A DNA stretch of 30,630 nucleotides, from the IMG/VR virus record IMGVR_UViG_3300042898_001145, positions 1-30,630 of that record, one strand, 5' to 3'. Positions 5,883-24,963 of the stretch are shown one piece after another (position 1 is the stretch's first letter; every line of letters begins with the position of its first letter). Position numbers and translations under genes: made by a program. The DNA is from a virus. The notes under the pieces are model-generated. The model did no database searches and was not told where the DNA came from. It saw nothing but the letters and a program-made list of their open reading frames with translations.

Positions 5883-6151
5883 TGCGTCACCTTCTTTGTT
5901 TCCAGGTATGCGTTGAGGCGGTGCGTCAGGTCAAGCAGCAGGTCGTTTGGTTGGTGAAGTGTGCGGCCTTCCATTGCGGCCAGGTACAAACTACAAACCG
6001 AAATGATGGTGCGTAGTTCTTGACATTCGACGCGTAGCCGTTCGAGGTGTTCGAGGCGTTGGGCGTTCTGTTCTGTCAGCCGTTCGTTTGCTGCGGTGAG
6101 GTCCGTTACTACCGCCTGGTAATACTGCGCCTCATGGTTTGTGTTTGTCAT
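5879..6151 (-). CDS. Hypothetical coiled-coil protein, 90 aa
   Basis: The ATG at 6151 has GGAGGAAACA directly before it, the same ribosome site as the RecB-like gene and terL. Residues about 12-48 form a Leu/Glu/Arg heptad pattern predicted to be coiled coil, and the rest is amphipathic. It overlaps the end of the 52-aa gene by 20 nt and the next gene by ATGA. No function was recognised; structural or scaffold-like helpers often look like this. Confidence 0.7.
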   Translation of the reverse strand: MTNTNHEAQYYQAVVTDLTAANERLTEQNAQRLEHLERLRVECQELRTIISVCSLYLAAMEGRTLHQPNDLLLDLTHRLNAYLETKKVTQ

Positions 6152-6290
6152 TGTTTCCTCCTTGGGTTTTTGGGTTGAGTAGTTGCCGCAACATGTCGTC
6201 GAGGCGTAGCACTTCGGTTTGTATGTCTTGCCGTGAAGTCGCAACGTGTCTGAGTACGTTCCGCATTGCTTGAATGTCTGCTTTTTTCAT
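6132..6290 (-). CDS. Hypothetical 52-aa helical protein directly behind the tRNA-like element
   Basis: The likely start is ATG at 6290 (MKKADIQAMRNV), only 2 nt after the predicted end of the tRNA-like RNA, with no Shine-Dalgarno sequence. A longer in-frame start at 6323 would translate through the T-arm. The protein is one amphipathic helix with a polar Gly/Asn tail. Translation may need 5' processing of the RNA or use leaderless initiation. Confidence 0.5.
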   Translation of the reverse strand: MKKADIQAMRNVLRHVATSRQDIQTEVLRLDDMLRQLLNPKTQGGNNDKHKP

Positions 6291-6292
6291 AG

Positions 6293-6370
6293 TGGCCCAG
6301 GGCGGTGTCGAACCGCCAGGCATGGGGGTTGGGTTTTTGTTTCCTCATACCTTCACCAATTGACTAGGCC
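6293..6370 (-). tRNA. tRNA-like RNA, non-canonical anticodon arm
   Basis: The gap between two genes holds a 78-nt element. Its ends form a 7-bp acceptor stem (GGCCTAG with CTGGGCC, one G-U) and a discriminator A; CCA is not encoded. The T-arm is perfect: GGCGG, loop TTCGACA, CCGCC. The D region (TCAATTGGTGA) has a typical GG-containing loop but only about 2 bp of stem. No normal 7-nt anticodon loop exists: a 6-bp stem (GGTATG/CATGCC) closes a 21-nt A/C-rich loop containing GGAAAC. It is either a decayed tRNA or a tRNA-like structure. A tRNA-derived attachment site is less likely because no integrase was seen. Confidence 0.5.
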
Positions 6371-24886: not shown

Positions 24887-24917
24887 CACCGCCGCCGCGT
24901 CTCACGCGGCGGCGGTG
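24887..24917 (-). terminator. 14-bp perfect hairpin after the capsid gene
   Basis: CACCGCCGCCGCGT pairs with ACGCGGCGGCGGTG around a 3-nt loop. On the minus strand CTTTTATTTG follows about 15 nt later, so it can act as a partial terminator or an mRNA end-protector for capsid. Confidence 0.7.
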
Positions 24918-24929
24918 GCCGTCAATGCT

Positions 24930-24948
24930 CAACGGTTCAACACCGTTG
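24930..24948 (-). repeat. Second hairpin after the capsid gene
   Basis: CAACGGT and ACCGTTG form a 7-bp stem with a 5-nt loop. It comes 15 nt past the capsid stop and before the 14-bp hairpin. The two stems lie in tandem in the only sizeable gap of the head operon other than that before the capsid gene. Confidence 0.6.
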
Positions 24949-24963
24949 CGGCGTTGGTGCTTA

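Follow-up and report, generated by a model that had tools for sequence, protein, structure and literature searches.

Why does a tRNA-shaped RNA without an anticodon lie between two protein-coding genes of a phage, and what could it do there? The window, by which we mean the whole stretch of DNA analysed (30,630 nucleotides), is a 30.6-kb IMG/VR record of a small tailed phage whose identified genes are on the minus strand. The first genes identified in it (terminase, portal, head protease, capsid and tape measure) are followed by an exonuclease, an SSB-like protein, small genes, a resolvase-type gene, a methyltransferase and a primase/helicase, and the tRNA-like element belongs to this early replication operon. 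No cultured close relatives were found by DNA or SSB protein search. Since homologues of the SSB-like gene occur in Micromonospora, Micrococcus and Arthrobacter genomes, and actinophages carry homologues of the neighbouring exonuclease and distant ones of the SSB, the host is likely to be actinobacterial. The AlphaFold model of the SSB-like protein has an OB-like core of five strands (pLDDT 79), its Foldseek matches in the PDB are weak and include the OB domains of RPA and of bacterial SSB (E about 1e-3), and among its matches in BFVD is an ssDNA-binding protein of a Gordonia phage (2e-6); from these predictions we infer that SSB-like is the right name for this 114-aa gene product.

Anatomy and tRNA-like character of the element

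The element begins 9 nt after the stop codon of the SSB-like gene, and its parts are listed in Table 1. The acceptor stem has seven pairs, one of them U-G, and the D hairpin is reduced to three pairs (UCA/UGA) around a loop that contains GG. The stem at the anticodon position has six pairs (GGUAUG/CAUGCC), to which the minimum free energy (MFE) fold adds one A-U pair. Folded alone, the element has an MFE of -31.7 kcal/mol (z -3.25), a stability that none of 200 dinucleotide shuffles attained. An intrinsic terminator, with a GC hairpin and a U run, is not present, as the structure is followed by CUAUGAAAAAA with no U run.

Table 1. Features of the tRNA-like element and of its flanking genes, in transcript order (coordinates of the window).
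Feature	Position	Strand	Basis or remark
SSB-like OB-fold gene, 114 aa	6380..6724	minus	Open reading frame, predicted OB fold, Foldseek
Whole tRNA-like element, acceptor to discriminator A73	6293..6370	minus	Position, fold, relatives, tRNA model match
Acceptor 5' strand GGCCUAG	6364..6370	minus	Partner 6294-6300; both-sided change in 7/7 pairs among relatives
Reduced D hairpin UCA-AUUGG-UGA plus A	6352..6363	minus	Fold; GG retained where relatives have a TTC T-loop
Anticodon-position hairpin, 5' strand GGUAUG	6346..6351	minus	Fold; both-sided change in 6/6 pairs among relatives
A/C-rich loop of 21 nt, no anticodon	6325..6345	minus	Loops of relatives 6-21 nt, C-rich, G-poor
Anticodon-position hairpin, 3' strand CAUGCC	6319..6324	minus	Fold
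T arm GGCGG-UUCGACA-CCGCC, 5-bp stem	6301..6317	minus	Fold and covariation
Acceptor 3' strand CUGGGCC	6294..6300	minus	Fold and covariation
Discriminator A73 (at 6293), then C74 U75	6291..6293	minus	CC, CG, CU or CA at 74-75 in relatives
52-aa gene	6132..6290	minus	Start codon 2 nt past A73; no Shine-Dalgarno

The coordinates, strand and parts that the first-pass annotation had assigned to a 78-nt element proved right by sequence and fold. Its boundaries are also those of the Rfam tRNA covariance model (RF00005), which, when the 94-nt stretch was searched alone, matched end to end at 6293-6370 on the minus strand with 17.5 bits (E 0.13), below the family cut-off of 29 bits. A search with the tRNA model over the whole record gave no match, as did an Rfam search of the window at the family cut-offs, and ARAGORN reported no tRNA either in the window or in the element-bearing loci of relatives. 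Since the model matches over the full length and yet stays below its cut-off, and ARAGORN finds nothing, we regard the element as tRNA-like, yet not as a tRNA. It shares with canonical tRNA the acceptor length, the acceptor/T-arm stack, the TTCRA T-loop, the D-loop GG, the purine at position 73 (here A73), C74 and, in some copies, an encoded CCA; exceptions to the elbow features occur among relatives in L011, in L181 and in copies with TGC T-loops. It differs from canonical tRNA in having no 7-nt anticodon loop on a 5-bp stem, the loop at this position measuring 21 nt in the window and 6-21 nt in relatives, as well as in its low model score and in being missed by ARAGORN.

A simple descriptor of the acceptor and T-arm pattern matched the window twice, against 0.07 matches expected, and over 961 kb of relatives it gave 58 matches (redundant) against 2.3 expected, mostly at the post-SSB locus. 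The two matches in the window are the element and positions 24890-24953 of the plus strand; the latter is antisense to coding sequence, unrelated to the element and not conserved as a site, and is probably due to chance.

A transcript-level structure under selection behind the SSB-like gene

Relatives were gathered through the SSB, the exonuclease and the resolvase and through wider SSB alignments. They revealed an element directly after the SSB-like gene in about 15 divergent phage lineages, with the same architecture and a different sequence in the post-SSB gap. The copy of L005, for example, reads GUCCGGC..CGACG-UUCGAUC-CGUCG-GCCGGAC-A-CC-AUG, and that of L030 reads CCCUUCG..CCCCG-UUCGACA-CGGGG-CGAAGGG-A-CU-AUG. 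ACCA is encoded in the copies of L034 and L026, the T-loop is TGCAA in L161, L178 and L019, and the element is also present in a second clade (L144, L146, L154 and L159-L163). A covariance model (R1), for which 8 copies from a single clade were used, recognised six whole clade-1 records and matched each of them strongly once; in the second clade it reached only one member, and a real tRNA-Thr scored similarly. When all viral contigs were scanned for a DNA pattern of the T arm plus ACTATGA, only known phages and no new valid copies came up.

The first-pass annotation had proposed looking for covariation in the same gap of related phages, and the stems do covary. In a stems-only structural alignment of 24 distinct copies, which is biased towards structure because it was made by structure and some copies were found through their pairing, both-sided change was seen in 17 of the 18 stem pairs, 99.1% of the alignment cells were paired and the covariation score was 1.14, against 0.14-0.21 for slid partners. 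The unbiased test is provided by near-identical relatives, where the alignment is beyond doubt. Between the window and L002 the acceptor changes from UAG/CUG to ACA/UGU, and RNAalifold recovers the fold unaided. Between L162 and L159 the anticodon-position stem changes from GAGAUG/CAUCUC to GGGUCG/CGACUU, and a T-stem C-G pair has become U-A in L160; L035 differs from L030 by an acceptor pair (G-C to A-U) and a hairpin pair (A-U to G-C). The acceptor and the T arm are present in the MFE folds of 24 of 27 copies. The element is real and selected, because relatives keep the fold while nearly all of its stem bases change, and the G-U pairs that occur among the stem changes indicate that RNA, and not DNA, is the selected entity. 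These data show that the element is a transcript-level structure under selection.

The unpaired positions that are kept are those of a tRNA. Of 27 copies, 26 have A73 and one (L019) has G instead, and C74 is present in all 27, with variable bases after it (CA, UA, GC, UC, AA). Among lineages with a TTC T-loop, 10 of 11 have GG in the D-loop, compared with 0 of 3 among those with a TGC T-loop, a comparison that is post hoc and involves small numbers. The T-loop of L011 is aberrant (AGCAUCA), the L181 copy has no D hairpin and some copies have six-base-pair acceptors. The suggestion that the element is a tRNA mimic is therefore strongly supported, by the covariation together with the kept T-loop, D-loop GG, discriminator A and C74. 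Two other origins had been put forward at the same time, a decayed tRNA gene and an old attachment site, which would account for the tRNA-like overall shape and for the sub-threshold match to the tRNA model. Both are contradicted and, in our judgement, extremely improbable: in about 15 lineages of highly divergent phages purifying selection has maintained the pairing through compensatory and G-U changes, no lineage has an anticodon loop or is recognised by ARAGORN at the locus, and covariation together with G-U pairs marks an RNA and not a DNA site.

Gene context and alternative functions

The constant partner of the element is the SSB gene, which lies upstream of it in every lineage, and the downstream gene changes. 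In the clade of the window the next gene belongs to the 52-aa family. Its start in the window (ATG at 6290) has a Shine-Dalgarno (SD) energy of -2.4 kcal/mol, against a median of -6.5 for the genes of the window, which agrees with the earlier observation that this gene begins 2 nt after the element without a ribosome site. Gene starts 1-3 nt from the 3' end of the element recur in unrelated settings, namely in the window clade, in L160 and in L235. In L160 the homology to L159 stops right past the element and a short ORF (ATG 5349) begins 1 nt after A73, and in L235 a different gene (ATG 1994) likewise begins right after A73-C74, in both phages without a separate ribosome site. The absence of an SD is not universal, since the acceptor 3' strand is itself SD-like in L012, L030-L035 and L019 (-7 to -11.4). 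In most phages of the second clade the next gene is an unrelated one that has an accessible SD of its own, located about 20-30 nt downstream. The idea that the element frees the mRNA of the 52-aa gene thus fits the window clade and does not extend to the second clade, and a leaderless start as its sole purpose was rejected for the same reason. Coding sequence in relatives was also rejected, as the clades do not share a conserved frame upstream of the 52-aa start.

The proximity of the start codon could also point to a translational switch in cis that works without cleavage, in which the fold hides the start (and, in some phages, an SD that lies within the 3' strand of the acceptor) and the next gene is controlled through binding or unfolding. 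The distance of 2 nt between stem and start, the SD-like acceptor strands of the phages named above and the ability of a flanking UGG to pair with CUA of the start region in the closest clade of the window are all consistent with such a switch. We nevertheless consider it improbable, given that the element is kept in the second clade although the next gene mostly has an accessible SD of its own.

The loops at the anticodon position offer a different clue, since pooled they are C-rich and G-poor (45% C and 15% G, where the loci have 31% and 26%) and several contain CCUCC or CCUUUC. This composition would suit a precursor of a stable sRNA, in which the tRNA enzymes of the host would free an sRNA built on a tRNA scaffold, with the C-rich loop as the part that acts in trans, for instance on SD sequences. 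The complementarity of the loops to the SD is, however, no higher than that of shuffled loops (mean z -0.4 and -0.3), and both the length (6-21 nt) and the sequence of the loops are highly variable, which makes such an sRNA improbable. A loop acting as SD mimic or anti-SD was rejected on the same comparison, and the GGAAAC of the window's loop, which had been likened to the ribosome sites of this phage, is not conserved even in its closest relatives.

A generic function has more in its favour. In many relatives, including cultured cluster K mycobacteriophages, a plain stable hairpin replaces the element at the same place, and for this reason the common function could be a generic one (to terminate, stabilise or insulate), of which the tRNA shape would be a special case. 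The corresponding reading is that of a structured insulator or retroregulator after the SSB gene, where any stable hairpin could partly terminate transcription, block exonucleases or be a site for RNase III, and the tRNA shape would serve stability, not recognition. L013 and L018, in which a hairpin forms at the position of the element, also agree with it. A plain helix, on the other hand, has no need of a conserved T-loop, D-loop GG, A73, C74 and 5-bp T stem, and the four-way junction is kept despite saturated change in the stems, which makes this reading rather unlikely in our view.

Long, nearly perfect hairpins (GAAAGAACGCAG..CUGCGUUCUUUC) with a loop of about 17 nt were observed in place of the element after the SSB gene in L236-L247, L252, L254, L267, L273 and others. 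In the cluster K mycobacteriophages (L194-L198, L200 and L201, e.g. Adephagia and ZoeJ) a distant SSB-like homologue, mostly annotated as hypothetical, precedes NrdH, and the next gap, of 85-115 nt, holds a very stable hairpin.

A candidate processing signal and its known counterparts

We favour, with a probability of roughly one half, the reading of an intercistronic tRNA mimic that the RNase P of the host cuts, possibly with a 3' cut, because its conserved parts are those read by tRNA-processing enzymes and because mascRNA/menRNA and t-elements provide parallels. The gene starts that abut the element in unrelated settings also speak for it, as does L013, where the SSB is 73% identical to that of L030, the T arm is lost and the SD of the next gene is strong (-13.1). 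Bacterial RNase P pairs with substrate residues 73-75 (PMC11143913) and reads the tRNA elbow (PMC11143913; PMC11693755), mascRNA and menRNA are cut by RNase P and RNase Z via the elbow (PMC11693755), and the t-elements of plant mitochondria define mRNA ends through the same two enzymes (PMC11658184). In the phage, the host RNase P would recognise the elbow and the A73-C74 end and cut 5' of G1, which would give the SSB message its own 3' end, and RNase Z or exonucleases may act later on the 3' side. Before cutting, the start codon would lie 2 nt from a stable stem, without a ribosome site. In the window clade, a 3' cut after A73 would produce an mRNA starting with CU-AUG or CC-AUG that a probably actinobacterial host might translate as nearly leaderless. 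The likely use of such processing would be that the SSB and the downstream genes are stabilised and translated independently.

The 3' step is less certain and may not be general, since C74 is invariant and the RNase Z of Bacillus subtilis is inhibited by an encoded CCA (PMC7479834). Leaderless translation is common in mycobacteria and was demonstrated there for a 5'-terminal start codon (PMC4633059), so that CU-AUG and CC-AUG starts are an extrapolation from that case. The complete scheme, in which the tRNA mimic lets the tRNA maturation enzymes of the host cut the early operon, RNase P ending the SSB message and a 3' cut producing a nearly leaderless next mRNA, is put forward tentatively. If true, it would be a bacterial-virus counterpart, evolved separately, of mitochondrial tRNA punctuation and of MALAT1/mascRNA processing. 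Processing of this kind would extend tRNA punctuation of mRNAs to bacterial viruses and would mean that translation-free tRNA mimicry was reinvented outside metazoa and plants. The copies could also serve as minimal substrates from nature in which the requirements of RNase P and RNase Z (elbow, A73-C74) are set apart from the remainder of the tRNA, and as a testable source of processing-derived leaderless mRNAs.

Comparison with known systems places the element near several tRNA-like RNAs. Like mascRNA/menRNA (RF01684), it has an acceptor and a T arm, is part of a longer transcript and carries a longer stem where a tRNA has its anticodon arm, and the small D hairpin, two conserved Gs and near absence of junction linkers described for those RNAs (PMC11693755) are found here as well. 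It differs from them in its large C-rich loop and in its place between protein genes, whereas they form the 3' ends of the metazoan MALAT1 and MEN-beta lncRNAs. A search with RF01684 gave no match in the window copy, and the L154 copy reached 30.8 bits (E 5.7e-5), below the cut-off of 42.5 bits. As in plant mitochondrial t-elements (PMC11658184), a tRNA-like sequence stands at an mRNA end in a gene cluster, here between genes of the same strand with gaps of 9 nt and 2 nt. The t-elements are homologous to known tRNA genes, whereas the phage element has neither a recent tRNA parent nor an anticodon loop.

The tRNA-like domain of tmRNA consists of an acceptor and T arm, a reduced D arm and an extended helix instead of the anticodon arm, and the phage element resembles it in all of these parts. 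Acceptor pair 3, unlike that of tmRNA, is C-G or G-C in 24 of 24 copies, so that alanine charging of the tmRNA type through G3-U70 was rejected, and no tmRNA match above cut-off was found. C4 antisense RNA (RF01695) is a phage RNA cut by RNase P; its fold and role differ from those of the element, and it gave no Rfam match here. Phage RNAs have been mentioned as RNase P substrates (PMC12710915). Although tRNA-like cis elements are already known, the version in bacterial viruses is a new variant: no Rfam family above cut-off covers it, and we found no description of such an element in phages in the open-access literature, which omits most subscription papers. It thus represents a structured RNA family absent from Rfam, whose members are tRNA mimics that lack an anticodon and have become fixed after an SSB-like gene in many divergent phages.

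Additionally, a second hairpin with a conserved AGGGG loop was observed just upstream of the element in L139, L144, L146, L154 and L159-L163 (e.g. GGGUC-UUAGGGG-GACCC in L159); judged by eye, base pairing may occur in the second clade between this loop and the pyrimidine loop of the element itself. A match of the complementary strand was observed to RF04354 (Plastid-ycf2 5' UTR) in L163 (5463-5530), L154 (5470-5539) and L146 (5466-5531), with scores that stay below cut-off (26.2 bits and E 5e-4 at best); this raises the possibility that RF04354 is a tRNA-like sequence read on the opposite strand.
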